Assembly: GCF_947489565.1 (NCBI RefSeq) | Contig: NZ_CANLEA010000004.1 | Coordinates: forward strand, 1-64,000 | DNA length: 64,000 nucleotides | From: an uncultured Kordia sp. | Lineage (GTDB): Bacteria; Bacteroidota; Bacteroidia; Flavobacteriales; Flavobacteriaceae | Direction: 5' to 3' | In this document: positions 48,796 to 64,000 of the stretch, one piece after another | Layout of the letters: every line of letters begins with the position of its first letter | Position numbering within the stretch: position 1 is the stretch's first letter | Notes under the pieces: model-generated | The model's input: the letters and a program-made list of their open reading frames with translations, nothing else | Told to the model about the DNA's origin: nothing | Database searches by the model: none | Translations under genes and position numbers: made by a program

Positions 48796-51700
48796 ATGAA
48801 AAAAAATACGATAACCTACGTACTATTTTTTTGTTTACTAACAACACATCTCTTTTCACAAACCATTTACGTAAACCACGCAGCTACAGGAAGTAATAAT
48901 GGAAGTAGTTGGACAGATGCGTATACAACAATTGGAGCTGCCATAAGTGCTGCCGCTGCTAACGATCAAATATGGGTTGCGCAAGGAACCTACAAAGAAA
49001 CCTACAGTATCACTACGGCTGGTGTTTCTTTATACGGAGGTTTTGCTGGAACAGAAACCATGGAATCTGAAAGAAACTGGAATGCAAACCCAACTATTTT
49101 ATCAGGAGATATGGATAGCTCAGGTTCTGTAACTGCTGGTGATACTTCTAATATGATTACACTCAGTAGTGCCAATGCGCGTTTGGATGGTTTTATAGTT
49201 GAGTATACAAATAACAGAGCTGTCACCATTTCTAGTTTTGCCACGATTCAAAACTGTATTTTCAGACATTCAATTGGTCCAGGTGTTTATTTTTCAGACT
49301 CCGTAGGTTCCGTGATTAGCAACTCTCTTTTCTACGAACTTAGCACCTATTCAACTGGTATCACTACACAAAGTACCACTCTTGTCAATGTGACCATTCC
49401 GTATACTATTGGGATTATATCTGTTGGTGGAACTGTTAATTTTAACAATTCAATCATATTAACGGGCATACAAACGAGTGGTTTTGGAGGTGCAAATTAT
49501 AACAACTCAATTTCTTCTGGTACAGGAATCAACTTTTCGGATGCAAGCAATAATGATTTCACCATAGATACAAGTTCTACAGCATACCAAGCAGGAAACT
49601 TAGCCTACAATAGCGCTACTCTTGATCTTGCACACAATGCAAGAACTTCTGAAGGAAATACCGTAATCAATATTGGTGCTTATGAAGGTGCTTCAAAAGT
49701 AACTCCGACTTTTAATTTTACGCAACCAACGCTTACTTTTGGAGATGTACCTTCGGAATTAACTATTACTTCAAATTCAACAGGAACACGTACGTATGAA
49801 TTATTTACTGATATGGCAGGAACAATGCCTGATACTACCAATGGTAGAAGTGTAAGCAGCGCTAATGGAGATACTATAACACTAACTGTTGGAAATGCAG
49901 GAACTACCTATTTAAAAGTTTCTACTACCGAAACGACAACGCATGCAGCTGGCGAACAGATTTTTGAAATTACAATCGATAAGGCAGATCCTGTACTTTC
50001 ATGGAATGATCAATCTATTTTACTGTTTTCGACATTAACCGCTCAGCAACTGAATGCTACTGCTGATGTTTCAGGAACTTTTGCTTACTATGAAAATTAC
50101 GATGACACTACAGGAATGTTTAGTACACTCATTCTGCAAGACTTTCATCAACTTGTCACTGCAGGACCAACCATTTTATATGCTTCTTTTACACCTACAG
50201 ATACTGCAAACTACAATACAGGTTTTACCTCTAGTAACGTAAATGTAGTAAGTTCATTAATTATCCATGTAAATGAAGCTGCAACAGGTACAAATAATGG
50301 ATCTACTTGGACAGATGCTTATACAAGTTTGGAAACAGCATTCGCCAATTTTTCGCAAGGACAAGAAATATGGGTAGCGCAAGGAAGTTATAAAACTTCA
50401 CAGACAACAAACACCAATAATATGTTGTTACTAGGCGGATTCAACGGAACAGAAACTACAAAAACTGAAAGAAACTGGAATCAAAATCCTACCATCATCT
50501 CTGGTGATGTAAATAGTAACGGAATAGGTGATTTTGGAATAGACCTTCAAGATTTAGTCGTTATAGAAGGTTCTAATGCATTCGTTGACGGATTTATCTT
50601 TGAACACTCACTCGGAATAGCATTAGACCTAACTACAGAAGCCACCGTACAAAATTGTATTTTTAGAAACATTACAGGAAATTCGTCATTTGCTATTTCG
50701 TCTAGCGGAAGCTCTGTAACGATTTCTAATTGCTTATTTTATGATAATGCAACAGATGCTAGTGTGGGAACTGTAACTTCTAGTGCAACACCATTAACCG
50801 TAATCAATTCCACATTTAACAATACAACGTCTGGAAATGGTATCAAAATAACTTCTGGTCAGTTGGTGACGCACAATACTATTTTTGCGAACGGATCGGC
50901 AGCGCATATTAGTGTTAATGCTGGTATCAATAATTCTGCGACTAGCAATCATACATTATTTGACACTGCACTTCCTTCTGATGTGATTGATGGTACTGGA
51001 AATATTTTCAACGCAAATCCTTTATTTGTAGATGCTGCGACTAATGATTACAACTTGCAACCGAGTTCACCTGCGGTAAACATAGGAAACAATAGCATCA
51101 ATACAGCTAGTTTTGATCTGAATAAAAATGATCGTATCGTTCTTTCTACCATAGATTTAGGAGCGTATGAAAATACAGGTCTCAACAATCAAATCATTAC
51201 ATTCAATCCATTAGTAGCAGTAAATTTGGGTGATTCAGATTTCGATCTTACTGCAACGGCTAGTTCAGGTTTAGCCGTTAGTTATAGTAGTTCTGATACT
51301 TCGGTAGCAACCATTTCAGGAAATACCGTAACTCTTGTTGGCGCTGGAACCACAACAATCACAGCAAGTCAGGCAGGAGATGCTAATTTTGAAGCTGCTA
51401 TCAATGTAACACAAGTGCTAACTGTAAATCCTCCAATTACGACTGATCAAACAGTAACTGCAACTCCAACTTCAGGTATTTGCAGTGTAGACGCTACGGT
51501 ATCTTTGGCGTCTTCTCAATTAGGAATCGATTATTATTTAAGAGATGATACAACAAACGCTATTGTTGAAGGTCCTGTAAGTGGAACAAACGCAGCAATT
51601 TCATTTGCAAACGAAACACTTACAAACGATAAAACATACAATGTCTACGCTGTACATGCAGATGAACGCATCAATACCTTTCAGTTTGATGATGTTGATG

Positions 51701-53403
51701 GTTATGTAAGCATTCCGAGTACAATCAACGATGAGTTTACAAATAATAGAATCACTATTGAAACATGGGCGTATATTCCTTCTTCAGATGATACAGATCA
51801 ATTTACTACATTGGTTACAGGTGAATTTGATGGAGCAACCGTTCCTTATACCATTTACATTAATAGTGGCGCTATGGGAACTGGTTTCTACAATGCTGGT
51901 TGGACAGAAATCACAGGAGTTTCCTATCCAAAAGATCAATGGATTCATGTAGCTTCTACCTACGATCAAAACAATATCAAACTATATATCAACGGAACTG
52001 AAGTTGCCAGTCTGGCAGCAACAGCGGCAATTCCTGTAAACAGTTTTGGTTGGAGAATGGGAAGACGTTGGGATGGCCCGCAGAATTCTACTCGTCTTTT
52101 TGGTGGTGCTTTGGCAGAAACCCGCATTTGGAATACAGCTCGCTCTTCTTCAGAGATTACTACTAACATGAACACTATCATTACTAATGAAACGGGATTG
52201 GTTGCAAGTTATACCTATTCAGCTGAAGCTGGAACAACAATTACCGATCAAACGGGCAATGGATTTGACGGTTCATTAATTGCTTTAGCAGGAGATTCAA
52301 CTAACTGGATTGTTCCAAACGGTGCTTTAGAAATGTCTATGACACCAACCGTGACAATTACGCCCGTCGAAGATCAAATAGTTACTTTAGCACAAGCGGA
52401 TACACAATCAGCAACGGTTTCTATAGCAAATTCTCAAATAGGTGTTGATTATTATGTAAGAGATAATTCGGATGATGCTGTAATTGAAGGACCAATTGCC
52501 GGAACAGGAAACGCTATTGATTTTTCTACGGAAACAATAACAGCAGATAAAACTTATAATGTATTTGCAGAAGCAGGAAGTTGTAATTTACAATTGACCA
52601 ACACACCTACAGCAACATACAGTAGATTATTATTGTCTGCAAAAGCATATCTACAAGGAGCTGCTTTCAATCCGAATACAGGAGAAGAAACTTTAATGCG
52701 TGACGATTTACGTGTAGCAAGTTTATTACCTACCACTTCTCCGTATACAGATGGAATTACTTGCGATGCAAGTGTATTCAACATAACAGGATCAGATGCA
52801 ATTGTAGATTGGATTTGGGTAGAATTACGAGACAAAAGCGACAATACAATGGTTTTACATAGTACTTCTGCCCTATTGCAAAGAGATGGTGATATTGTTT
52901 CTGTAGATGGTACTTCTCCACTAGCTTTCTTCACATTTGCTGATGATTTTTTTATTACAATTAAACATCGAAATCATATGGGAATCTTGAGTTTGAATGC
53001 TATAACGCTCAGTTCTTCAAATACGACTGTTGTAGATTTTTCGGATACTACCAATCAAATCACTTTTGGAAGCAATGCGCAAACAACCTCTGAAATGCCC
53101 ACTAATATAGTTGCTATGTGGGCAGGAAATGTAAATGGAGACACACTTATTCAGTATTCCGGAACAGATCCAGATACACCAAATATTTTATCGCTCGTAC
53201 TAAATGATGCCGGAAACTTTCTCAATTTCCCAACATTCGTGGTAAGTGGCTATTTAACAAATGACATCAATATGGATGGAAGTACACAATATTCGGGGAC
53301 AACTCCAGATACGCCTTTCATCTTACAAAATATATTGGCGCATCCAGGCAACTTTTTAAACTTTAGCACCTATCAAATTTTAGAACAGTTACCAGAAAAC
53401 TAA
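48796..53403 (+). CDS. Large secreted beta-helix / Ig-like / LamG protein
   Basis: 1535 aa. Signal peptide 1-22 (THLFSQ). A right-handed beta-helix region about 23-300, a beta-rich linker about 305-490, a second beta-helix about 490-790 that repeats the first (both hold ATG-NNGS-WTDAY and ERNWN-NPTI-SGD), a bacterial Ig-like domain about 795-880, a LamG/concanavalin-like domain about 955-1140 (DGYVSIPSTINDEFTNNRITIETWAY, DQWIHVASTYDQNNIKLYINGTEVA), a repeated LGIDYYLRDDTTNAIVEGP-type module on either side of it, and two C-terminal dockerin-like repeats (GNVNGD-, NDINMDG-). Surface adhesion or polysaccharide binding is plausible. No catalytic motif and no standard type IX sorting domain were recognised. 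Confidence 0.85.
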   Translation: MKKNTITYVLFFCLLTTHLFSQTIYVNHAATGSNNGSSWTDAYTTIGAAISAAAANDQIWVAQGTYKETYSITTAGVSLYGGFAGTETMESERNWNANPTILSGDMDSSGSVTAGDTSNMITLSSANARLDGFIVEYTNNRAVTISSFATIQNCIFRHSIGPGVYFSDSVGSVISNSLFYELSTYSTGITTQSTTLVNVTIPYTIGIISVGGTVNFNNSIILTGIQTSGFGGANYNNSISSGTGINFSDASNNDFTIDTSSTAYQAGNLAYNSATLDLAHNARTSEGNTVINIGAYEGASKVTPTFNFTQPTLTFGDVPSELTITSNSTGTRTYELFTDMAGTMPDTTNGRSVSSANGDTITLTVGNAGTTYLKVSTTETTTHAAGEQIFEITIDKADPVLSWNDQSILLFSTLTAQQLNATADVSGTFAYYENYDDTTGMFSTLILQDFHQLVTAGPTILYASFTPTDTANYNTGFTSSNVNVVSSLIIHVNEAATGTNNGSTWTDAYTSLETAFANFSQGQEIWVAQGSYKTSQTTNTNNMLLLGGFNGTETTKTERNWNQNPTIISGDVNSNGIGDFGIDLQDLVVIEGSNAFVDGFIFEHSLGIALDLTTEATVQNCIFRNITGNSSFAISSSGSSVTISNCLFYDNATDASVGTVTSSATPLTVINSTFNNTTSGNGIKITSGQLVTHNTIFANGSAAHISVNAGINNSATSNHTLFDTALPSDVIDGTGNIFNANPLFVDAATNDYNLQPSSPAVNIGNNSINTASFDLNKNDRIVLSTIDLGAYENTGLNNQIITFNPLVAVNLGDSDFDLTATASSGLAVSYSSSDTSVATISGNTVTLVGAGTTTITASQAGDANFEAAINVTQVLTVNPPITTDQTVTATPTSGICSVDATVSLASSQLGIDYYLRDDTTNAIVEGPVSGTNAAISFANETLTNDKTYNVYAVHADERINTFQFDDVDGYVSIPSTINDEFTNNRITIETWAYIPSSDDTDQFTTLVTGEFDGATVPYTIYINSGAMGTGFYNAGWTEITGVSYPKDQWIHVASTYDQNNIKLYINGTEVASLAATAAIPVNSFGWRMGRRWDGPQNSTRLFGGALAETRIWNTARSSSEITTNMNTIITNETGLVASYTYSAEAGTTITDQTGNGFDGSLIALAGDSTNWIVPNGALEMSMTPTVTITPVEDQIVTLAQADTQSATVSIANSQIGVDYYVRDNSDDAVIEGPIAGTGNAIDFSTETITADKTYNVFAEAGSCNLQLTNTPTATYSRLLLSAKAYLQGAAFNPNTGEETLMRDDLRVASLLPTTSPYTDGITCDASVFNITGSDAIVDWIWVELRDKSDNTMVLHSTSALLQRDGDIVSVDGTSPLAFFTFADDFFITIKHRNHMGILSLNAITLSSSNTTVVDFSDTTNQITFGSNAQTTSEMPTNIVAMWAGNVNGDTLIQYSGTDPDTPNILSLVLNDAGNFLNFPTFVVSGYLTNDINMDGSTQYSGTTPDTPFILQNILAHPGNFLNFSTYQILEQLPEN

Positions 53404-53599: not shown

Positions 53600-54550
53600 T
53601 CAATTCATAATATATTTTGATTCATTTTCTATAAAATCCATTATACTACTTTCAAACTTTTTTTTACTACTAAAATAATTATAGTGCATAAATCTTTTTA
53701 CTTTTGATTTTTTCATCCAATCTTCCCAGAATAATTCTATAATTTCTTGATCAGTAGGTCTAACTGTTGGATTACCTGTTTTTGTTAAAGATCTATCATA
53801 AAATTCTAAAGCAATTATCTCTAAATTTTTCAAGTTAGGGTTATTAACAGGAACAATCCCATATTCATTTTCGTCAAAGAAGTTTTTTAAAGAATTAGTT
53901 TTCGATTTTTTAAAAGCCTTCCGAAAATCTGAAATTACTTTTCTATTCAAAAAATAAGTTTTTTTTCCGTTTTTTTGATTTGAACCATATTCGATATAGC
54001 CATCAGTAAACAATAATAATATATTTCTATATTTATTTTCATCATTTGTTATTCCTCTAATTTTTGATTTTAGTAAACTATAAATGTCAGCTCCTTTTAT
54101 ATTCATACTTGCTGAATCATATAGCTTTTTTATTTCACCCTTAAATGCCTTTTTATCTTCTTTAAATCCTTTAATATTATTTGTTAGATATTTTATACGC
54201 TGCATGTTATTAAATTTAGATAGATCCAAATTTAGTTTTTCAGTATCTACCTTATAATTTTTAACATCCATCCCATTTAAAAACAATACTTCTATTTTAT
54301 CTTTTTGCCCATTATCTCTATTGGCAGATTTGTATATGTTTGGATAATAAAATTCTAAAAAATGAGCAATTAATGTACTATCTTCAAGTGTTTTTGGATA
54401 TTTTGTAAGCCGATTTGACAAATCTGAACAGATTAAGAATCGTAAATGCTTCTTTGAAGGAATCGTTTCTAATTTATTGATATTCTCATTGCATGATATC
54501 GAAAAAATTAATACCAAGATCAAGGCTGCTAAATTATTCGTTTTTATCAT
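53600..54550 (-). CDS. Lipoprotein with vWA-like domain
   Basis: 316 aa. Type II signal peptide with lipobox SIS-C20, so a membrane-anchored lipoprotein. The rest looks like a von Willebrand factor A fold: hydrophobic strand LRFLICSD followed by DLSNR (Asp43, Ser45; a partial MIDAS, with Arg where DxSxS has its last Ser) and a later strand ILLLFTDGYIEYG supplying another metal-ligand Asp. Many Lys and Asn. It is the last gene of the six-gene operon, 1 bp after the PLD-like membrane protein. Function unknown; vWA domains usually mediate metal-dependent protein contacts, so it may partner the membrane protein before it. Confidence 0.7.
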   Translation of the reverse strand: MIKTNNLAALILVLIFSISCNENINKLETIPSKKHLRFLICSDLSNRLTKYPKTLEDSTLIAHFLEFYYPNIYKSANRDNGQKDKIEVLFLNGMDVKNYKVDTEKLNLDLSKFNNMQRIKYLTNNIKGFKEDKKAFKGEIKKLYDSASMNIKGADIYSLLKSKIRGITNDENKYRNILLLFTDGYIEYGSNQKNGKKTYFLNRKVISDFRKAFKKSKTNSLKNFFDENEYGIVPVNNPNLKNLEIIALEFYDRSLTKTGNPTVRPTDQEIIELFWEDWMKKSKVKRFMHYNYFSSKKKFESSIMDFIENESKYIMN

Positions 54551-54551
54551 T

Positions 54552-56567
54552 TTACTTAGGGTTTATTACTTTAATAATATTTTTTTCAGGTAAGTTTATA
54601 TTGTCATTTGACCAAGAATCAACTATGCTATAGGCTTTATTATATAACTCTTTAGACTTTTCTTCCGCAAACTCTTTATATAACCAGGCAGCCCATCCTT
54701 GAAGAAATACACTTATTCTATCCTTAAAAGCTGCTAGAGGTAAATAGATCGTATTATTATCGATTCCATTCTTATAAATATCTGCTCGTTTTTTTATGTA
54801 CGTTATATATTCTTCTTTTTCAATTTCTAGTTCATTTATTCCTTCTTGACGTTCTACATCTAAATATGAAATATTGATTTTTATTTCATTTTGTAATTCT
54901 ATCATTTGAATTTTATTTTTCTTCAATTCTTCAACTTCTTCTGTATATTCAAATAATTCGCTTGAAAGTAGTAGAATTTCATCTGTCAATTGTTTTTTCT
55001 TTAATTTAGCTTGCTCTTCTTCTTCTCTAGGCAATCTATCCTTTATGTATTTTTTCAGCCTAGATACTGCATTCACAAACATTATTAGTGGTACAAATCC
55101 AAAAAAGAAAATAAAGAAAAATTCTAAACACCATTCTAAATTAATAGCCCTTTCAATACCATCATTAAGTTCTCTGATAGTATCAATTGAATTTTTAACT
55201 TTATAAGATATTAGACTATCTAAGGATATTATTGTTAAATAAGAAATCACTTTAGATAACTTGTTTTTTGTACGATCTGCATAGTGAGCTAATGAAAACG
55301 GAATTACACTAAAAACAAGAATATAAAAAATGGCCAAACCTTGTCTATTTATTGCTAGTTGAAAGAAATCTGAATTAAAAAAATTAGGCGTAAACCTATA
55401 ATTTTCATAATCTTGTTTGGCATACAATAATATATACGCACTAGAAGCATAAAATAAAAAGGAGATTACAAATAACCCTATTGGATATATTAAATACTTT
55501 ATTATTGCATATCGTTTTTTAGGTGGACGAGGAATTTTTTCAATATCCAACTTTAGTTTTTCTTCTTCAATTTTTTTAATCTCAATCTCTTTTTGAGGAA
55601 TTTTATTACTCTCCAGATCTTTTACTGATAAATTTATTTTCTCGATTTCAGTGTCCAAATGATTTAATTCTATTTGAAACTGTTTCTTTTTTGCAGTTAT
55701 TTCACTTTCTTTTGTTGCTATTTCTCCATTTGAATATTTAGAAAAACTATTGGTTAATTCTGCTACTTTTAAATTAATTTTTGTTTTTAAATCTTCTTTT
55801 TGCTTGATATTGTTATTTATACTACACAAAAAAATATTATAAAGTGAATCCATTATTTTTGATAGAGTATCTGGATTACCTCTGACTCTCTGTGCACTTT
55901 CAGCTCCAGCCAATAATAGTTCATTTTTGTTAAAGCTTTCTATATCTGTAATTACAATTGAGTCTAAGACTTCATCTATTGCAGTTATACCTTCAGAAAT
56001 TTTATCCGCTTTACGTTTAGAACTTTCTAACAGTGATTCTTTATCCTGTTCTTGTTCTAGCTCTTCTTCATCAATTCTCCTATATACACCTTTTAGCCAA
56101 CCAAATAATCCTCTTTTAGGTGTAGATGAAATATTTTTTGATATATTTCTCACAAAAAACACATTAAATTCATTTATGAATTTCTCAATAATATCTTTTC
56201 TATGAGAAATGGTTACACCTCCTGAATAATTATTTTTATTATGAAAAGACCAGTTTGTAGAGGCATAGATAGCAATCTCTCTGTCTATTAAGCAAAAATC
56301 TCGATTCCAACCTTGATCATTTATATTTTTAAAAATTGACACTTTAAAATTGTCATCAAAATCTAACAGTTTCACTTTTTGCTCCCAGCTATTTTCATCA
56401 ATAGATAATTTAATTAGTATCCCTTTTTTTGATTGCCTTATTAATAATTCTAAAATTTCATCATCCATACACCAACATGAACCTATTAATATTTGTTCTC
56501 TTGCCGTAAGCATTTTTTCTTTTATTGATCTTAATGCAATATGTTTGTTATGTAATTGTTCTTCCAT
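54552..56567 (-). CDS. Membrane protein with degenerate PLD-like N-domain and coiled coils
   Basis: 671 aa. N-terminal 20-140 resembles half of a phospholipase-D-type domain (REQILIGSCWCMDDEILELL, then NRDFCLIDREIAIYASTNWS, where intact enzymes have HxKxxxxD), but the His/Lys are absent, so nuclease or lipase activity is unlikely. Coiled coil about 260-345, a pair of membrane helices about 358-382 and 408-430, perhaps a third about 441-455, another about 478-501, then a second coiled coil about 505-600. It starts 86 bp after the TIR gene and ends 1 bp before the lipoprotein gene. A membrane-acting effector or scaffold is possible; no known family recognised beyond the PLD-like part. Confidence 0.7.
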   Translation of the reverse strand: MEEQLHNKHIALRSIKEKMLTAREQILIGSCWCMDDEILELLIRQSKKGILIKLSIDENSWEQKVKLLDFDDNFKVSIFKNINDQGWNRDFCLIDREIAIYASTNWSFHNKNNYSGGVTISHRKDIIEKFINEFNVFFVRNISKNISSTPKRGLFGWLKGVYRRIDEEELEQEQDKESLLESSKRKADKISEGITAIDEVLDSIVITDIESFNKNELLLAGAESAQRVRGNPDTLSKIMDSLYNIFLCSINNNIKQKEDLKTKINLKVAELTNSFSKYSNGEIATKESEITAKKKQFQIELNHLDTEIEKINLSVKDLESNKIPQKEIEIKKIEEEKLKLDIEKIPRPPKKRYAIIKYLIYPIGLFVISFLFYASSAYILLYAKQDYENYRFTPNFFNSDFFQLAINRQGLAIFYILVFSVIPFSLAHYADRTKNKLSKVISYLTIISLDSLISYKVKNSIDTIRELNDGIERAINLEWCLEFFFIFFFGFVPLIMFVNAVSRLKKYIKDRLPREEEEQAKLKKKQLTDEILLLSSELFEYTEEVEELKKNKIQMIELQNEIKINISYLDVERQEGINELEIEKEEYITYIKKRADIYKNGIDNNTIYLPLAAFKDRISVFLQGWAAWLYKEFAEEKSKELYNKAYSIVDSWSNDNINLPEKNIIKVINPK

Positions 56568-56653
56568 AAAAGAATTGATATTAAATTATTATTGCTTTTT
56601 GTAATAAATATTCGCTTTTTATATTCTAAATTTTAAGAGTAAACATTTGATTA

Positions 56654-57205
56654 TCAATACTCAAAATCAAACAACTCCAATAACCAATGTGAATTATTCT
56701 TCATTTTATTTCTAGTGTTATTTATGAGAGAAGTATTTTTTCTCATACGGTTCGCTATTACTAGTTTCCTAATTAGATTTTTAGTATCGAGAACACTGTT
56801 CCAATCCATTTTTACGACATATCCTGAGTCAATATTATCCTGAAGGCGCTTTGGTATACTATGTTTTTTTATTCCTGGAAGAAAGATGGCTAAAATTCCA
56901 CTAGGTCTGAATCCTTCTCTAAACCGAACATTCTTATTACGATATCCTTCTAAAGAAGCCCATATTTCCCAATCTACCCATTTTCTCCTTCCTGTATTCT
57001 TTCCTATCAAAACAATCGTTACAGAACAATGATTCATTCTATATTTAATTCTATCGTAAATTTGTTCTTCATCTCTATAACTAATATCTCTATCAAGTCC
57101 ATAATCAGAGACTTTTATAAGTTGATATATTTCTCTTATTTTTTTTACATATTTGAAATCATCTTTATGATAATAACTTATAAAACAATTGAGTCTTTTA
57201 TTCAT
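56654..57205 (-). CDS. ThsB-like TIR-domain protein 2
   Basis: 183 aa, single domain of the ThsB/DUF1863 TIR-like family. It opens with a FISYYHKDD strand and loop, and carries SVTIVLIGKNTGRRKWVDWEI with Glu80 in the position of the catalytic glutamate of NAD-consuming TIR enzymes. In Thoeris systems ThsB senses phage and makes a cyclic-ADP-ribose-type signal from NAD+ that switches on an effector. It begins 1 bp after the other TIR gene. The two share the N-terminus, the VDWEI motif and Glu80 at the same residue number, so they are paralogues, though they diverge in the C-terminal half. Expected cytoplasmic. Confidence 0.8.
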   Translation of the reverse strand: MNKRLNCFISYYHKDDFKYVKKIREIYQLIKVSDYGLDRDISYRDEEQIYDRIKYRMNHCSVTIVLIGKNTGRRKWVDWEIWASLEGYRNKNVRFREGFRPSGILAIFLPGIKKHSIPKRLQDNIDSGYVVKMDWNSVLDTKNLIRKLVIANRMRKNTSLINNTRNKMKNNSHWLLELFDFEY

Positions 57206-57206
57206 T

Positions 57207-57740
57207 TCAATTACATAAATTTTTATCCATCTGTTTTTTACTATTCACTCGCTCATCTTCATGAGATGTACGTCTGTAAAAGGCATTATTGATAATGTCC
57301 TTCATTTCCTCGATATCTTCCGTCCAATCATGAATTGAAGCATATCCTTCTCCATTTTTTTTGAGATTATCAGCTAAACGATCAGGTATATTATTAGGAT
57401 TATAGTTTTCTTCCAATCCATAATCGGAATGTGATGGCAATCGGATACCTACCAATCCCGCATAAATACCTCCTACTTTATGATTTAACGCCGCAGCTAT
57501 TTCCCAATCGACATGCTTTCGACATCTCGTTTTTTGACTTATTAATACAACTAAAACTGTGACATCTTTCAAGTAGTCTTTTTGAATTAATTCTTTTGTA
57601 TATTGATCATGATTATTAACATCGATATCTTCAGCACGTACAGATTTATTGACAATGATATCTTCAAATAATTCTTCAAATTTGTTTTTATAATCTTCGT
57701 CTTTATGGTAATAACTGATAAATGTTTTACGCTTTTTCAT
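57207..57740 (-). CDS. ThsB-like TIR-domain protein 1
   Basis: 177 aa. TFISYYHKDED at the start, LKDVTVLVVLISQKTRCRKHVDWEI with putative catalytic Glu80, and a C-terminal half with IPDRLADNL and IHDWT, all as in ThsB-like TIR proteins. It lies 3 bp after the caspase-family gene and 1 bp before the second TIR gene. Caspase-type (type IV) Thoeris pairs a TIR protein with a caspase-like protease, so this gene is the natural signal-maker for its neighbour. Two TIR genes for one effector is also known in Thoeris loci and may widen the range of triggers. Confidence 0.82.
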   Translation of the reverse strand: MKKRKTFISYYHKDEDYKNKFEELFEDIIVNKSVRAEDIDVNNHDQYTKELIQKDYLKDVTVLVVLISQKTRCRKHVDWEIAAALNHKVGGIYAGLVGIRLPSHSDYGLEENYNPNNIPDRLADNLKKNGEGYASIHDWTEDIEEMKDIINNAFYRRTSHEDERVNSKKQMDKNLCN

Positions 57741-57743
57741 CTT

Positions 57744-58739
57744 TTAGATTTTATTCTTATCAACCATTTTCCAATAATAACGGCCTAGTCTACTAAGCTT
57801 ACACGAAGTGTTATTTTTAGCTGCATTGTACAAGTACTTTTCTCCAACAGGAACTAAAAGTCCAAGTGCGTAATATTCACGTAGATGTTTCATTTTTTTG
57901 ATATTTTTTCTATCTGTAGATCCCAAATCTTCCTCATAAGATCGGTCTAATGGAAAATTATACTTGGCATTTGGAAAATATTCTGTAATCTTACGTAGTG
58001 TCTTTAGTCTAATTTTCGGATACGCTTTTCGAAGTGAAACCATTTTTGAAACATGCGATTTAAATATTGGTCGTTGTTCCCAGGTATTTAACAATTGATC
58101 AACGTAATTATAAACTCCCGAAACATTGATGTTTCCTAAAATATCTGCAGCACCTCCTTTTAAAGCATTGCACAAAATAGACGTAAATAGTCCTTGGTTA
58201 TTTAGTTTTTCAATAGAATACTGCGTGTCCCTACTAGATGTTAATATAGAGACGCCTTCACGCAATATTACTTTGCGCCCGCCAAGCTCTTTTGAGTTCC
58301 CCAAATGTCCACTATGACAACAATCTAAAATTAAAATAACTTCACGGACTTTTGATGAGTTCGCCATCGTAATGATTTCGTCAAGTGAAACACCTTCTTG
58401 ATACTTTTCAGCATCTTGAGTTACCAAATAGCTCCCAATGTCATTAGTATTACCATGACCTGAAAAGTACAACACCGCAATCTCTGCTTCTTGATATAGT
58501 AAATTGTATATCTGTTTCTTTAATCTTCTGGTTGTAATCTGTGTTTTAGGATTGTGTGTATCTTTTGAAATCATTAATCTGCAATCAAAATTTACATTAT
58601 TATCTTCATGACGATTTAAGACCTTAAACATATTTTTCGCATCATTAATGCATCCGTCTAACGGACCTCTTTCGTAATGATTAATTCCCACTATTAATGC
58701 TCTTCTCATGGCGCCGTTTTTTATAATTGATTTACTCAT
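57744..58739 (-). CDS. Caspase-family (C14, metacaspase-like) protease
   Basis: 331 aa. p20-like domain about 11-220: RALIVGINHY, YFSGHG with catalytic His95, and LILDCCHSG with catalytic Cys141 (the Cys before HSG). The C-terminal 90 residues (about 240-331; TEYFPNAKYNFPLDRSYEED to LGRYYWKMV) form a separate small module, perhaps the sensor or substrate-binding part. Its ATG overlaps the stop of the upstream gene as ATGA (58736-58739), so the two are translationally coupled, and the TIR gene follows 3 bp later. It may be switched on by the TIR product and cut the coupled upstream protein. Met11 is an alternative start. Confidence 0.88.
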   Translation of the reverse strand: MSKSIIKNGAMRRALIVGINHYERGPLDGCINDAKNMFKVLNRHEDNNVNFDCRLMISKDTHNPKTQITTRRLKKQIYNLLYQEAEIAVLYFSGHGNTNDIGSYLVTQDAEKYQEGVSLDEIITMANSSKVREVILILDCCHSGHLGNSKELGGRKVILREGVSILTSSRDTQYSIEKLNNQGLFTSILCNALKGGAADILGNINVSGVYNYVDQLLNTWEQRPIFKSHVSKMVSLRKAYPKIRLKTLRKITEYFPNAKYNFPLDRSYEEDLGSTDRKNIKKMKHLREYYALGLLVPVGEKYLYNAAKNNTSCKLSRLGRYYWKMVDKNKI

Positions 58740-59524
58740 TTTAGGTATTGTTTTAAATCTACAGACTCTAATTTCAATTTATAGGAATCATCATTGTCTA
58801 GTAGTAAAGAATCGTTATCAAAAAGGCCATCTTTTTGGAAAAATTTCTTTTTGAAACGCATCACATCTACAAAAACTGTAACATCATCAGACCATTCTTT
58901 GATAAAAGCACTTCCTTTTTTCTTGGTGATGTTAATATTTGCAGCTACGTCTAATCCCAACGCTCCAGACTTAATGTTTTTGATATCTCCGCCAAGTTCT
59001 AATTGAAAGTCTTTTGAAGTAGATTGTACGACCATAGCTTTTTTTGCTACGGTTACAGCTGTAACCAGATACGTATCATCCCAAACTAACTGTTTACCGT
59101 TATCATTGATTTCACTCTCTAGATTATGAATATTATTTAAGGATTGCTTTGTACATTCAAGTGCATGAAAAAATATAGATCCTTTTTTTGAAAATGATAA
59201 TTGTAGTTTTCCACTTCCCTTAGGTGTTTTTTTCAGTGTTGTATCTATAGTTCCTCCTAAATTTGTGTCTATCTCAACAACATTTTTACTTGTAAACTGA
59301 TATGAATCTGCGCTTTCTGAATCAGAAGTTATATCACAAGTTATATCTAAACTTTTCAAGTCGGTAATTTTTTTGAAGCTCCCAAAAGGAGCTATTTTGA
59401 AGATTCCTTTTCCGTGTGGGAATTGGACAATATCGCCAACTTGAATTTTTTCTCCGGGAAGATAAACAGCTACTTTACCAAGCTCTTTTGCGATTGTTTT
59501 TGAATATTGTATTTGTAGTGACAT
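58736..59524 (-). CDS. Caspase-coupled protein, possibly divergent gasdermin-like pore former
   Basis: 262 aa, no signal peptide or membrane helix, beta-rich. From family memory the order of segments resembles bacterial gasdermins (about 250-280 aa): VAVYLPGEKIQVGDIVQF, IAPFGSFKKI, a Gly-rich strand pair (NLGGTIDTTLKK, KLQLSFSKKGSIFFHALE), and late WDDTYLVTAVTVAKKAMVV followed by ELGGDI and VTVFVDVMRFKKKFF. The last 30 residues (acidic, DGLFDNDSLLLDNDDSYKL) could be a releasable inhibitory tail. Bacterial gasdermins usually sit beside a caspase-like or trypsin-like protease, as here. Against it: no Cys near the N-terminus for acylation, and the match is by eye. Coupled to the protease by a 4-bp overlap. 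If not a gasdermin, it is still the likely protease partner or substrate. Confidence 0.45.
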   Translation of the reverse strand: MSLQIQYSKTIAKELGKVAVYLPGEKIQVGDIVQFPHGKGIFKIAPFGSFKKITDLKSLDITCDITSDSESADSYQFTSKNVVEIDTNLGGTIDTTLKKTPKGSGKLQLSFSKKGSIFFHALECTKQSLNNIHNLESEINDNGKQLVWDDTYLVTAVTVAKKAMVVQSTSKDFQLELGGDIKNIKSGALGLDVAANINITKKKGSAFIKEWSDDVTVFVDVMRFKKKFFQKDGLFDNDSLLLDNDDSYKLKLESVDLKQYLK

Positions 59525-59617: not shown

Positions 59618-59637
59618 TATCCTCAATTCTGAGGATA
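59618..59637. promoter_or_regulatory. Palindromic activator site candidate, copy 1
   Basis: TATCCTCA-ATTC-TGAGGATA, perfect 8-bp arms, 94 bp upstream of the caspase/TIR operon. A second copy (62852-62867) lies upstream of the kinase/regulator operon. Centre is about 69 bp above the -7-like box, a normal place for a class I activator. Confidence 0.6.
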
Positions 59638-59657
59638 TAATATATGCATAAACTATA

Positions 59658-59685
59658 AAAATCCATCGAAGTTTCGATGGATTTT
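59658..59685 (-). terminator. Terminator after the response-regulator gene
   Basis: AAAATCCATCGAA (59658-59670) and TTCGATGGATTTT (59673-59685) pair perfectly over 13 bp, 28 bp after the response-regulator stop on the minus strand; reading that strand the stem ends in TTTTT. It separates the two-component operon from the caspase/TIR operon. Confidence 0.75.
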
Positions 59686-59712: not shown

Positions 59713-60351
59713 TCACATATATCCTTTTTCAAAAGCATAACGAACCAATCCTTTAGAACCTCCATCGACACCTGTCTTTTCAATCAAGTTTCTTCTATGG
59801 GTTTCTACTGTACTGTGTGCAATACAAAGTTCTTCCGAAATTATTGGTGTAGTTTTCCCCAATGCGATGAGTTTTAAAACTTCAATTTCTCTTTTAGTAA
59901 GTTTTACATTTTTTAATTCGTTATCTTTTTTGCGTTGACTTGATCTGAATGTTTTTTCTACTTCCCTACCAAAAAACTCTTCGCCATCAATGATATATTT
60001 TATTGCCAACACAAGTTCTTCTTTTCCTTTGTTTTTGAGGATATAACCATCAGCTCCAATCTCAATAACACTCCGAACAAATTTCTCTGTATTGTACATT
60101 GATAAAATAAGTACTTTAACATTTGGATGTTTTTCTTTAATCTTTTTTGTTGTTTCAATCCCCGATAACAAAGGCATTTCGATATCGAGTACAACTAAAT
60201 CGACTTCCGTTTTTTCAAGAATTTCTAAGACTTCATTACCGTTCAACGCTTCGCCTACGATTTCAATACTTTCTTCTTGATTTAATAATGATTTTAATCC
60301 ATCAATAACTATTTGATGGTCGTCAGCAATGACTACTTTAACTTTTTTCAT
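59713..60351 (-). CDS. NarL/FixJ-type response regulator
   Basis: 212 aa. Receiver domain 1-120: acidic pair Asp10-Asp11, phosphorylatable Asp56 (VVLDIEMPLLSG) and the conserved Lys near 107 (GYILKNKG). LuxR-type HTH about 147-205 (LTKREIEVLKLIALGKTTPIISEELCIAHSTVETHRRNL). Cytoplasmic DNA-binding partner of the kinase encoded 29 bp upstream. It is followed by a strong terminator and then by the caspase/TIR operon, whose upstream palindrome it may bind. Normal family length. Confidence 0.95.
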   Translation of the reverse strand: MKKVKVVIADDHQIVIDGLKSLLNQEESIEIVGEALNGNEVLEILEKTEVDLVVLDIEMPLLSGIETTKKIKEKHPNVKVLILSMYNTEKFVRSVIEIGADGYILKNKGKEELVLAIKYIIDGEEFFGREVEKTFRSSQRKKDNELKNVKLTKREIEVLKLIALGKTTPIISEELCIAHSTVETHRRNLIEKTGVDGGSKGLVRYAFEKGYM

Positions 60352-60380: not shown

Positions 60381-62444
60381 TTAGATGGGAATATCTATAT
60401 TAATAGTAGTCCCGTTTCCTTTATTTGAATCAATATGAAAGATGCCTTTCAAAGCATCTACCCGAGATTCAATCCCTTTTAGTCCCATACCTGTTGATGC
60501 ATTATTTTTAGAATTTTCAAAGCCAATTCCGTCATCAGTTACGGTCAAATTAATTTCGCTTGTTCTCTTTACCAGTTGCACAATTACTTCTTTAGCTTTT
60601 GCATGTTTTATAACATTATGAATGAGTTCTTGCGTAATTCCATAAAGTTCCATTTCAAGATTATTTTCAAGTCTATCGTCAAGTCCGTGTGTAATGACTT
60701 CAATTTGAAATGTATTGGTTCCTTGTATTGTATTTTTAAGATCTTCTAAGGCTGCAACCAAACCAAACTTTGTCAATACGCCAGAAACCATATTATGTGC
60801 AATTTCCCTTACTGCATTACAAGCTTCGTCCAATAACGCATTTGCTTGTGTATATTGTTTTCTATTTTCTTCTTTTAGCTTATCTAAATTATCTTCTATC
60901 GATTTATAATTGAGTTTCACCATAGAAAGCATACTTCCCAAACGATCGTGTAAATCTTGAGCAATTCGTTTGCGTTCACTTTCTTGTCCGCTAATCATTG
61001 CTTTGATAGATTTCAGTTCCTGCTTTTTTAGCAATTCAATATTTTTCTGAATTTCAGATTCTTTTTCTTTTTTAGATCGATACGCATAAAAAACAGCAAA
61101 AAATAATAAAGCCAATAAAACGATTCCTCCTATTAGCGCAAACATCTGTGTGTCTTTTCGCCTACTTTTTTGTTCTTCTACTTCTTTCTCCTTAAGTAAA
61201 AAATCATTTTTCTCTTTTTCTTTTTCATACAGCTCTGCATTCCTAAATTTTATATCAATACTATCTCTCAATTCAATATGTCGCTCATTAAACAAAGAGG
61301 CATTTTTATAATCGCCTAAATGCTCATAGGTTTCTGCAATTCCCATTAGAATATTCAATCGATCTAAATCTTTATTATACTTTTTTGCCAATGCATAACT
61401 TTGATTGTAAAATTTTAGAGCTTCTTGATTTTTATTTTGTTTTCTATTAATAATTCCTAAGTTTAGATATGTATCTAAAAGTTGAATTTCATTATCATTT
61501 TCTTTAGCAGTTTCAATGCTTTTTAGAAAAAACTCTTCTGCTAACTCAAATTCTTCTTTTTCCTGATGCACTACACCTATGTTGTTATAAATAGCTTCTT
61601 TACTATTTAAATTCAAGGAATCTTTGATAGATAAACTTTTGTGATAAAAAATAAGAGCACTGTCAAGTTTTTTCTCCTCCGCAAAATTTACACCCATACT
61701 CAAATAAATACTAGCCAACGATGAATAGTCTTTTAATTTCTTATTTAAAAACTCGCTTTTATTTAAGTATTCTCTAGCTTGATGTTTCTTTTTTAAGGTA
61801 GTATATAATTTTCCTATGCTTAAATATAAATCTGCTAAGCTAGCTTCATCTCCCATTTTTTCATGGATTTTTATACTATTATGATATGCTCTTAAAGATG
61901 CTGAATAGTCATTTACATCTTCATAAATAGTAGCCAAGACATGATACGTTAATGCGAGAACTTCTTCATCATTAATTAGCAAACAAGTTTCTAAAGCTCC
62001 TTTTCCATGTTGTATAGCCTTCTCATACACTCTCATTTCTTGATAAACTTGACTTAATTGAATGTTTGTAAAAACGATTCCTCTTAAATTTTTATTCTTC
62101 TCTCTAATGTTTAGAGAAGCGAGATAATAGGTTTCGGCCTCTTGATAGTTCTCTTTCCTTTTTTCTAAAGAACCTAACCTGTAGAGACTTTTTGACAAAC
62201 CTTTACTGTATGAAATTTTTTCACTAATTCGTTTTGCTTCACTAGCATAAAAACGTGCGATAGAGTCTGTATATTTATATTTAGATGCAAGCCCATTTAG
62301 ATAATTAACCTTAGTGGTATCATCTTTCTTATTTTTCAATTCTTCAAATATATCAGTATGTTGACCAAAGCTTATTTGTACAACAAAAAACATAGCAGTA
62401 ATCAAAAAAATAGTGTGCAGGCTTTGATTTATTTTAAAATACAT
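60381..62444 (-). CDS. TPR-containing histidine kinase (HisKA_3 type)
   Basis: The frame runs from 62510 (709 aa), but the start at 62444 (residue 23) is preferred because it gives a clean signal peptide (MYFKINQSLHTIFLITAMFFVVQISFGQ). Numbering from 62510: tetratricopeptide repeats about 60-420 in the periplasm, one membrane helix about 456-477, coiled coil, HisKA_3 with His521 (ERKRIAQDLHDRLGSM), and a C-terminal HATPase with Asn632 (QELIHNVIKHA), DDGIGF and GMGLKGI. NarL-class sensor that phosphorylates the response regulator encoded just downstream. TPR ectodomains usually sense proteins or peptides, but the signal is unknown. Confidence 0.93.
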   Translation of the reverse strand: MYFKINQSLHTIFLITAMFFVVQISFGQHTDIFEELKNKKDDTTKVNYLNGLASKYKYTDSIARFYASEAKRISEKISYSKGLSKSLYRLGSLEKRKENYQEAETYYLASLNIREKNKNLRGIVFTNIQLSQVYQEMRVYEKAIQHGKGALETCLLINDEEVLALTYHVLATIYEDVNDYSASLRAYHNSIKIHEKMGDEASLADLYLSIGKLYTTLKKKHQAREYLNKSEFLNKKLKDYSSLASIYLSMGVNFAEEKKLDSALIFYHKSLSIKDSLNLNSKEAIYNNIGVVHQEKEEFELAEEFFLKSIETAKENDNEIQLLDTYLNLGIINRKQNKNQEALKFYNQSYALAKKYNKDLDRLNILMGIAETYEHLGDYKNASLFNERHIELRDSIDIKFRNAELYEKEKEKNDFLLKEKEVEEQKSRRKDTQMFALIGGIVLLALLFFAVFYAYRSKKEKESEIQKNIELLKKQELKSIKAMISGQESERKRIAQDLHDRLGSMLSMVKLNYKSIEDNLDKLKEENRKQYTQANALLDEACNAVREIAHNMVSGVLTKFGLVAALEDLKNTIQGTNTFQIEVITHGLDDRLENNLEMELYGITQELIHNVIKHAKAKEVIVQLVKRTSEINLTVTDDGIGFENSKNNASTGMGLKGIESRVDALKGIFHIDSNKGNGTTINIDIPI

Positions 62445-62567
62445 ATTTTGATATCTAGGTATTAAAGTAATGGTGTTTAAGCATTTTTTTTCAAAAAAAT
62501 AAACGTACATCTTTCTACTAAGGTAAGAAAAATCTACGTTTACATCATCTAATGTTCTTTTGTAACA

Positions 62568-62805: not shown

Positions 62806-62851
62806 TTCTCTTTTTAGCTATCATACAATCGTCAAAACATAGGTATTTCTC

Positions 62852-62867
62852 TCCTCATTTCTGAGGA
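62852..62867. promoter_or_regulatory. Palindromic activator site candidate, copy 2
   Basis: TCCTCA-TTTC-TGAGGA followed by TATAA. Over TCCTCA to TATAA it differs from copy 1 (59618-59637) at a single position. It is 46 bp from the -7-like box, against 57 bp for copy 1, a difference of one helical turn. Confidence 0.6.
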
Positions 62868-63286
62868 TATAAATACAGCATTTCCAATGATTGACCAGAG
62901 TTATCATTTACTACATCTTTGTATAAATTATTAAGACTATATGAAGTGAGAATGCTTTATATCATTTAAGACTGAAGATATTTAATCAAAGAATAAATCT
63001 GGTAGTATCACTAGTACATTGACTAGAGAAATAGGAGATTTTAAATATGATAATTTGACGACTACACCTTGACTGCACTATATCAAATACAATGTCTTAT
63101 TAGATGATAATGAGTTCATTTATTTAGGTTTTAAGGACTTGATGGAAAGTCAGGTTCATTCTTCAAGAGATATGACCCAGTCTAAAAATAAAGAATTGCT
63201 TTATAAAATGGGTTCAAAGCCAGCTAAAAGAGAGGTTAAAGTTGAGCATTACAAATAGAATATAAATATTGTAATAATAGATTTCT
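62868..63286. other. Intergenic region with possible decayed gene fragment
   Basis: On the plus strand a frame is open from 62986 to the stop at 63258 except for one TGA at 63070-63072. The part after the TGA includes a short ORF from ATG 63142 (38 aa, MESQVHSSRDMTQSKNKELL...). No family recognised. It may be the end of a broken gene or chance. Nothing else was seen here apart from sequence upstream of the edge gene. Confidence 0.25.
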
Positions 63287-64000
63287 ATGAAAAAATCAAT
63301 CTTTGAATCACAATTTGGTAGCGGAAAAATAGGGTTCTTAATACGTAAATTCGAAAATCGTCCAGACCGGAATCAGTTAGTCGAGTTAGTAAAAGACTGT
63401 TTTTTAGAAAAAGGCCTAAAAATTGTCGATGCATTGGAGTACACTTTCCATATACAACTATGGGAAAACATAAAAACATATATGGAGCATTGTAGTTTTG
63501 GAGTCGTAATTATTGACAATTTAACACCCAAAACAGATAATAATTTTAATCCTAATACCTTCTTAGAAATAGGTTACTTATTAGCATTAGGAAAGCCGAT
63601 TTTGATATTATTACAAAATAGCTTGGAACAAAAAATTCCAACCAATATCAAAGCCTTTATATATACAACATTTGACTCACAAGATGTTCATAATGAAAAT
63701 ATTAAGAACATTGTGTTTGAATGGATTGATAAATCACAAGCAAGTCCAGGTTATTTATCAATTTATTTTGAAAAAGATAATGCCGATTTGGATATGATAA
63801 AAAATCTTAAGGTTTTTCTCTCTGAAGTTAAATGTTCTACCATAAGTGATCGAACAACCGAACCTTCTAAAAAAGAAACTAAAGGCTTAAAATCTGCTTC
63901 TGGATTTTTAAAAATTGAATTTAAAGTGAATGATTACAAAAAAGCATTTAAGTTCATGGAAGATTTTAATGCGGGTTATTATAAGCATGCAATAGAAGTT
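63287..64000 (+). CDS. TIR-like / nucleoside 2-deoxyribosyltransferase-like protein, 3' end beyond window
   Basis: 238 residues visible, still open at the right edge. N-terminal 1-125 shows a Rossmann-like fold: GKIGFLIRKF, CSFGVVIIDN, and NTFLEIGYLLALGKPILILLQ, where the Glu in N-x-x-x-E-x-G is placed like the catalytic glutamate of nucleoside-deoxyribosyltransferase-like and TIR-type NAD-cleaving domains. After residue 155 comes a different, Lys-rich region that is cut by the edge. It is on the opposite strand to the kinase/caspase genes and not in their operon. A NAD- or nucleotide-consuming immune effector is plausible. The start at 63287 is the first Met of the frame with good coding character. 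Confidence 0.6.
   Translation, partial: MKKSIFESQFGSGKIGFLIRKFENRPDRNQLVELVKDCFLEKGLKIVDALEYTFHIQLWENIKTYMEHCSFGVVIIDNLTPKTDNNFNPNTFLEIGYLLALGKPILILLQNSLEQKIPTNIKAFIYTTFDSQDVHNENIKNIVFEWIDKSQASPGYLSIYFEKDNADLDMIKNLKVFLSEVKCSTISDRTTEPSKKETKGLKSASGFLKIEFKVNDYKKAFKFMEDFNAGYYKHAIEV

Follow-up and report, generated by a model that had tools for sequence, protein, structure and literature searches.

Our analysis of a 64,000-nucleotide stretch of DNA from an uncultured Kordia sp. (contig NZ_CANLEA010000004.1, positions 1 to 64,000; "the window" below is this whole stretch) concerns six adjacent minus-strand open reading frames (ORFs) within 53600-59524 and the sensor kinase and response regulator genes upstream of them. 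We think it probable that these genes make up a two-component-armed TIR-caspase-gasdermin abortive-infection cassette with two control layers. The gene set, the domain identities, a gasdermin-like predicted fold, the linkage of the genes, and a palindrome with its spacing to a candidate -7 box were computed directly. An earlier, sequence-only reading of the window had described the six genes, and the coordinates and spacings it gave (-4, 3, 1, 86 and 1 bp in transcription order, the first being the 4-bp overlap of the caspase ORF with the gasdermin-like ORF) agree with ours; it had missed the same-strand kinase and regulator, which accompany the module in 11/11 relatives. The central features, from the kinase downward, are:

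62850-62869, strand not assigned: second copy of the predicted operator, one mismatch, between the kinase gene and a divergent gene
60381-62510, minus strand: sensor histidine kinase (Pfam TPR, HisKA_3 and HATPase_c; hydropathy; a kinase in 12/12 loci)
59713-60351, minus strand: response regulator, receiver plus LuxR-family helix-turn-helix (HTH), NarL-type (Pfam; 12/12 loci)
59658-59685, minus strand: hairpin and T-run, predicted terminator 3' of the regulator gene
59618-59637, minus strand: palindrome TATCCTCA-N4-TGAGGATA, predicted operator of the response regulator, best site in the 6.4-Mb genome
59555-59558, minus strand: TTTG of a candidate flavobacterial -7 box, 69.5 bp from the operator centre
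58736-59524, minus strand: gasdermin-like protein, 262 amino acids (aa) (AlphaFold2 and Foldseek, alignment)
57744-58739, minus strand: caspase, 331 aa, His95/Cys141, conserved C-terminal domain at about 245-331, type IV Thoeris-like (Pfam, model and Foldseek, relatives)
57207-57740, minus strand: first ThsB-family TIR protein, 177 aa, Glu80 (Pfam ThsB_TIR)
56654-57205, minus strand: second ThsB-family TIR protein, 183 aa, Glu80 (Pfam ThsB_TIR; weak PDB match to ThsB1, E 0.0014)

Relatives were collected in one pattern-based scan of genome contigs with two peptide patterns, which reaches close relatives only. It gave 11 loci, in Dokdonia, three Aquimarina, Flavivirga, Mesoflavibacter, Polaribacter, Tenacibaculum, Kordia, Chryseobacterium and one metagenome-assembled genome (loci carry L-numbers here). 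In all 12 loci, these and the window, a kinase and a regulator gene lie upstream of a gasdermin-like gene and a caspase gene, all on one strand, and the gasdermin-like gene always stands between regulator and caspase. These four genes are the constant set. Other genes are found within this order: two between regulator and gasdermin in L026, an opposite-strand TIR gene at that place in L030 and L033, and TIR, TPR-S or other genes between gasdermin and caspase in six loci. Chance gene order was rejected since the order is the same in 12/12 loci, and a shared chromosomal address was rejected by eye, as the module's outer flanks carry different genes from locus to locus. Pairwise identities of the four constant proteins correlate across 11 loci (Spearman 0.45-0.81, Mantel p <= 0.003; L026 was omitted from this test). 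The sequence-only reading had proposed all six genes as a unit and had itself named conservation of the set as the check that could refute this; 0/11 relatives have the full set, and for that exact set the check failed. Its idea of a pathway from TIR to protease to pore survives and gains a two-component layer, and the gasdermin-like and caspase genes are linked in other genomes too. Next to one island (L030:14243-19367) are a coupling-ATPase-like gene (Pfam), a short dprA-like ORF and a serine-recombinase-like gene (the last two by eye), which looks like the entry of a mobile element into dprA.

The caspase matches Pfam Peptidase_C14 (E 1.5e-21), with His95 and Cys141 where the sequence-only reading had put them, and the 50 listed fold matches of its model (predicted local distance difference test score, pLDDT, 85) are MALT1, metacaspases and caspases. 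His95 and Cys141 are invariant in 27/27 aligned caspases, TIR-caspase pairs included, as are the C-terminal residues L294, P297, A306, C313, L315 and G319; the protein looks catalytically active. A tblastn search with it gave 64 plasmid records at E <= 1e-8, of which 41 cover at least 80% of the query (35.6-46.1% identity in 40 listed of the 64 records). At the four plasmid loci opened, a TIR gene ends at most 12 bp from the caspase start or overlaps it (4/4), and there is no annotated gasdermin or kinase in the four stretches, where the PLSDB annotation is incomplete and L048 starts at its record's end. From their gene content these pairs would be type IV Thoeris. Going by gene content and homology (such relatives, and the invariant dyad and C-terminal residues), we assign the window's caspase to the same family. 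Viral contigs hold three relatives; two are full length and are directly preceded by a small TIR-like ORF (by eye). A search of 299 family genomes gave seven caspase loci in five genomes; the kinase-regulator pair lies upstream in five (the window, Mesoflavibacter, L052, L053 and L054), and L067 and L068 lack it. L053 is a second copy in the window's own genome (G000:C3:326500-341000), with a TIR gene of the L027 type, and L052 and L054 are two loci in one same-genus genome. In 395 phylum genomes there are four caspase loci outside the window's own genome; each is directly preceded by a TIR gene or TIR-like ORF (phmmer in two cases, by eye in the other two), and the stretches read contain neither the kinase-regulator pair nor a gasdermin. 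One ancestral caspase for all kinase-linked loci is not supported: these caspases fall in two tree parts (branch support 1.000), mixed with unlinked ones, and the caspase has therefore been swapped or acquired more than once.

The AlphaFold2 model of the 262-aa protein, made from 11 sequences, has a pLDDT of 67 and a predicted template-modelling score (pTM) of 0.68. In a Foldseek search of the PDB its ranks 1-16 are occupied by gasdermins without exception, of bacterial, fungal, Trichoplax and mammalian origin (best E 1.8e-5; E <= 1e-3 for eleven of them), and a gasdermin-like predicted fold is well supported. The model has a disordered linker at about residues 230-246 (pLDDT < 50), then a strand (248-254) and a helix (257-260); in the alignment of gasdermin-like proteins (A4, from which the L026 protein with its in-frame stop was omitted) the linker is variable and the hydrophobic pattern of the tail is kept. 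Linker then short tail is also the layout of the cleavable C-terminal tail of bacterial gasdermins, according to PMC9079055. The weak match of the NCBIfam prok_gasdermin model to the protein is collinear over residues 16-195, and other family members match that model at E 2.7e-4 (L006), 9.1e-4 (L021) and 0.12 (L019). Together these data point to a sequence-divergent branch of gasdermin-like proteins lying under the cut-off of the NCBIfam model (0/10 scanned reach it). No gasdermin relatives were found in viral contigs and there was no match in phages; the plasmid search gave two distant gasdermin-like matches. The gasdermin-like gene of Aquimarina litoralis L026 (5311-6090) is broken by its in-frame stop, and the caspase ORF there is intact. 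Distant gasdermin-like proteins adjoin a CHAT-annotated gene (L008) or a CHAT-like ORF (L019, by eye) and lie near SIR2-like and STAND-like ORFs (L020) or caspase-like ORFs (L021; domains by eye); these loci, from other Bacteroidota and one actinomycete plasmid, represent a wider, unnamed gasdermin-like branch.

The kinase has a hydrophobic segment at 31-49, TPR repeats, a second hydrophobic segment at 456-474, and HisKA_3 and HATPase_c domains; its TPR region is probably periplasmic, because it lies between the two hydrophobic segments. The regulator has a receiver domain, with Asp56 as likely phospho-acceptor, and a LuxR-family HTH (Pfam; position). The two have the make-up of a two-component system, a HisKA/HATPase kinase with a phospho-His (His521) and a receiver-HTH regulator with a phospho-Asp (Asp56), by position. 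In the kinase tree, for which scoring was limited to three candidates per genome, the caspase-linked kinases split from five other kinases with support 1.000. These five come from four loci (L055-L058), of which only L056-L058 are readable past the regulator (L055 runs off its contig), and no caspase lies beyond the regulator at those three. We judge it less likely that the pair is an unrelated neighbour of the effector genes, because the caspase-linked kinases form this separate part of the tree. Kinases from loci that lack a gasdermin are interspersed with the gasdermin-linked ones (L052 next to L033, 0.983; L053 and L054 in a 0.983 group with the window), and this nesting suggests that the gasdermin was lost or exchanged in L052-L054.

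The sequence TATCCTCAGAATTGAGGATA (59618-59637) comes after the terminator-like hairpin of the regulator gene (59658-59685), and since this predicted terminator ends the regulator gene, the effector operon would need its own promoter. Allowing up to three mismatches, the palindrome occurs at 17 places in the 6.4-Mb genome, compared with 36 for its reversed control, and matches with three mismatches are therefore chance. Sites with no or one mismatch are only two, 59618-59637 and 62850-62869, which flank the kinase-regulator pair, and there are none with two mismatches. With up to four mismatches the palindrome is present between the regulator and the first effector gene in 15/15 loci (shuffles: mean 0.33, maximum 3/15), and its density in these gaps is 65 times that in the rest of the loci (kinase upstream stretches set aside). 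It lies directly upstream of the gasdermin-like gene in 11/12 loci and in L026 upstream of the inserted TIR gene; the 17 loci without the module have no site under four mismatches. A sister palindrome, AATCCCCA-N4-TGGGGATT, is found at two caspase-less loci of kinase-regulator relatives (L056 and L057). The consensus of the flavobacterial -7 box is TAnnTTTG, with TTTG as its core (PMC9723704). A TTTG stands 56.5-60.5 bp from the palindrome centre in 11 loci and 68.5-69.5 bp from it, about one helical turn further, in the window, L025 and L026; this makes 14/15 loci (none in L028), against a mean of 1.0/15 and a maximum of 6 in shuffles, with distance windows chosen after the distances were known. 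The palindrome is predicted to be an operator bound by the response regulator, and with the TTTG spacing it looks like an activator site. Extra copies of the operator pattern, at L027:11892 (two mismatches), L029:17273 (none) and L034:5392 (none), lie near island ends or upstream of a kinase, and from them the regulator may control further units.

The remaining genes vary from island to island. Both genes that the sequence-only reading had called ThsB-like, with Glu80 in each, bear this out (Pfam ThsB_TIR E 1.6e-17 for the 177-aa and 1.4e-18 for the 183-aa protein); they share the operon with the caspase at gaps of 3 and 1 bp. A phmmer search of the PDB with the first gave no match, and the second has its weak match to ThsB1. 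At least one TIR-family gene is present in 11/12 islands, the window included, in at least five TIR types, and TIR genes are exchangeable between islands. The other neighbouring features are:

54552-56567, minus strand: locus-specific protein, 671 aa, PLD-like N-terminus, three hydrophobic segments (Pfam, hydropathy)
53600-54550, minus strand: predicted lipoprotein, 316 aa (N-terminal segment; relatives in islands L029 and L054)
63287-64000, plus strand: start of a divergent gene, 411 aa, which continues past the window end (CAP12/PCTIR-type TIR match)

The 671-aa protein had been called a degenerate-PLD membrane protein; its three hydrophobic segments fit the membrane part, and its PLDc_2 match (E 6.1e-5) is under the curated cut-off. 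Its gene has no phmmer match in any of the 11 relatives, and the plasmid search found a PLD-domain match only. Likewise the 316-aa protein keeps the lipoprotein label, with an N-terminal hydrophobic segment ending in Cys, and loses the vWA one (VWA match only E 0.15). It has relatives in 1/11 gasdermin-set loci (L029) and in the gasdermin-less L054, and none was found in plasmids. The divergent 411-aa gene has its TIR match at E 0.0011, under cut-off, and is followed beyond the window end by a TPR-S protein (L059:9529-10782; another TPR-S lies inside island L032); the two are possible further members of the island. RCK-domain channel-like proteins are encoded in two Aquimarina islands (L027:10301-11722 and L029:15621-17045), the latter adjoining the relative of the window's lipoprotein, and are perhaps alternative membrane effectors. 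G+C is 0.26-0.33 over 54-64 kb, compared with 0.336-0.376 in 24/32 two-kilobase steps of the window. A 1535-aa plus-strand ORF with an N-terminal leader-like start (window 48796-53403) adjoins the island.

A number of observations weigh against the cassette interpretation, most of them concerning the gasdermin. Sequence methods alone failed to prove that the 262-aa protein is one: its score against the NCBIfam prok_gasdermin model is 14.8 bits (E 0.018), short of the curated cut-off of 100, so that of the earlier suggestion of a possible gasdermin the predicted fold (Foldseek ranks 1-16) stands and the sequence link is weak. Ten gasdermin-like proteins compared with that model gave 4/10 at E <= 1 and 0/10 above cut-off, and 6/9 further family members, including the close relatives L025 and L035, have no match at E <= 1. 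In a PDB profile search the Bradyrhizobium gasdermin 7n50 (E 0.023) ranked under four unrelated repeat proteins, hhalign against two accepted gasdermins gave E 0.13-0.4, no gain over a caspase control (0.25), and the Foldseek TM-scores against gasdermins are 0.24-0.47. The N-terminal palmitoylated Cys found in most, not all, bacterial gasdermins (PMC9079055) is absent; the only Cys residues are at 63 and 124. There is no gasdermin in the kinase-regulator-caspase loci L052, L053 and L054, where the caspase may act without one, and Dokdonia L025 (1/12 islands) has no adjacent TIR gene; its genome has two TIR_2 ORFs elsewhere and no ThsB_TIR match. By the same hydropathy rule, the N-terminal segment is present in 2/12 of the other kinases and the second segment in 12/12. 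The loci are related, their counts are not independent, and species kinship is kept in the identity correlation. The palindrome and the TTTG spacing were spotted in these loci before counting and the counts are not blind; the genome-wide palindrome result is more independent than the 15-locus count. In L053 and L054 the palindrome has four mismatches and continues into a T-run, where it may act as terminator of the regulator gene, and L053, the own genome's second island, has only this four-mismatch palindrome and no site within three.

Some of these points would fit an ordinary type IV Thoeris system, in which the TIR-caspase pair needs no partner and works through general proteolysis, the gasdermin-like and two-component genes being separate components of a defence island. 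TIR-caspase pairs do occur without an annotated gasdermin or kinase, at 4/4 opened plasmid loci, 4/4 phylum loci outside the own genome, L067 and L068, and L052-L054 have the kinase, regulator and caspase without the gasdermin. We nevertheless find this explanation unlikely: the gasdermin-like gene lies between regulator and caspase in 12/12 loci, overlaps the caspase by 4 bp in the window, and has the palindrome directly upstream in 11/12. The constancy of the kinase-regulator pair, greater than that of the TIRs (as at L025, with its TIR_2 ORFs elsewhere), would instead suit a stress-triggered lysis programme, not phage defence, in which an envelope kinase induces the cassette, caspase and gasdermin lyse the cell, and the TIRs are side modules. 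TIR-family genes in 11/12 islands, the company that this caspase family keeps with TIR genes on plasmids and TIR-like ORFs (by eye) in two viral contigs, and partner genes as highly exchangeable as in defence islands make that distinctly unlikely. The weak sequence link and the moderate model confidence (pLDDT 67) also leave room for a 262-aa protein that has a gasdermin-like fold and, instead of forming pores, inhibits the caspase or acts as its scaffold. This seems improbable indeed, as the best fold matches are gasdermins only (ranks 1-16) and related proteins adjoin other protease-like genes (a caspase-like ORF, by eye, in L021 and a CHAT-annotated gene in L008).

The two-component-armed TIR-caspase-gasdermin cassette is best compared with four known kinds of system. 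Type IV Thoeris consists of a TIR protein and a caspase-like protease that is activated by TIR-made N7-cADPR (PMC12847820, PMC13373217); the window's caspase is of that family and has its C-terminal domain, with ThsB-family TIR genes adjoining. Beyond this there are a gasdermin-like protein, a two-component system whose operator is predicted, and partners of TIR, TPR-S and membrane type that are exchangeable. With bacterial gasdermin-protease systems (Johnson 2022, PMC9079055) it shares, going by its predicted structure, the gasdermin-like fold, disordered linker and short tail, and it has a caspase next door; it differs from them in a sequence far from the NCBIfam model, the missing N-terminal Cys, a TIR-linked protease type and the two-component genes. 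CapK/CapS, an anti-sigma-like kinase and a repressor that answer to single-stranded DNA, lies upstream of defence operons, 12 type IV Thoeris loci among them (PMC13373217). It is thus similar in its kinase-based transcriptional control, whereas the window has a TPR membrane kinase and a LuxR/NarL-type regulator. In Canu, a caspase-nuclease system, the caspase activates a co-encoded death effector (PMC12799240); there the effector is a nuclease, and the available part of that paper names no TIR or two-component genes. The combination of gasdermin, TIR, caspase and two-component genes was not found among the papers that the literature searches listed, nor were the predicted operator and the divergent gasdermin branch; the texts and supplements of Rousset 2025 and Wein 2025 may hold such loci. 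Each part is of a known kind, and the combination, the predicted operator and the sequence-divergent gasdermin branch would be the new elements.

What we infer is a role in phage defence, what is sensed, which way the regulation runs, and the steps of NAD-derived signalling, cleavage and pore formation, as follows. In the first layer the membrane kinase would sense an envelope signal and phosphorylate the NarL-type regulator, which would bind TATCCTCA-N4-TGAGGATA and switch on the gasdermin-caspase-TIR operon; such a chain from kinase to induction is the most likely reading of the domain order, palindrome and spacing. In the second layer the TIR proteins would detect infection and produce an NAD-derived signal that, by analogy with type IV Thoeris, would activate the caspase through its C-terminal domain. 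The caspase would then cut off the short C-terminal tail of the gasdermin-like protein, and the resulting pores would kill the cell; this chain from TIR to pore is most likely by homology to type IV Thoeris and bacterial gasdermins. The fullest version, which we put forward more tentatively, is a two-key pyroptosis: induction of a silent operon by an envelope two-component system would come first, and a nucleotide derived from TIR would next fire a caspase whose substrates are a new branch of gasdermins.

A predicted operator, a candidate pair of protease and substrate, and 12 loci for comparison are now available for direct tests. If the two-key circuit is real, infection would be sensed twice, in the envelope and in the cytoplasm, before self-killing, and the cassette may be a bacterial counterpart of pyroptosis in animal immune cells. 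Three immune modules that animals also have (TIR, caspase and gasdermin) would stand together in a single bacterial operon, ordered as signal, protease and pore, with an inducible membrane sensor in addition. The cassette would also show abortive infection being licensed by a two-component system, and control is a problem of importance where a defence is lethal.

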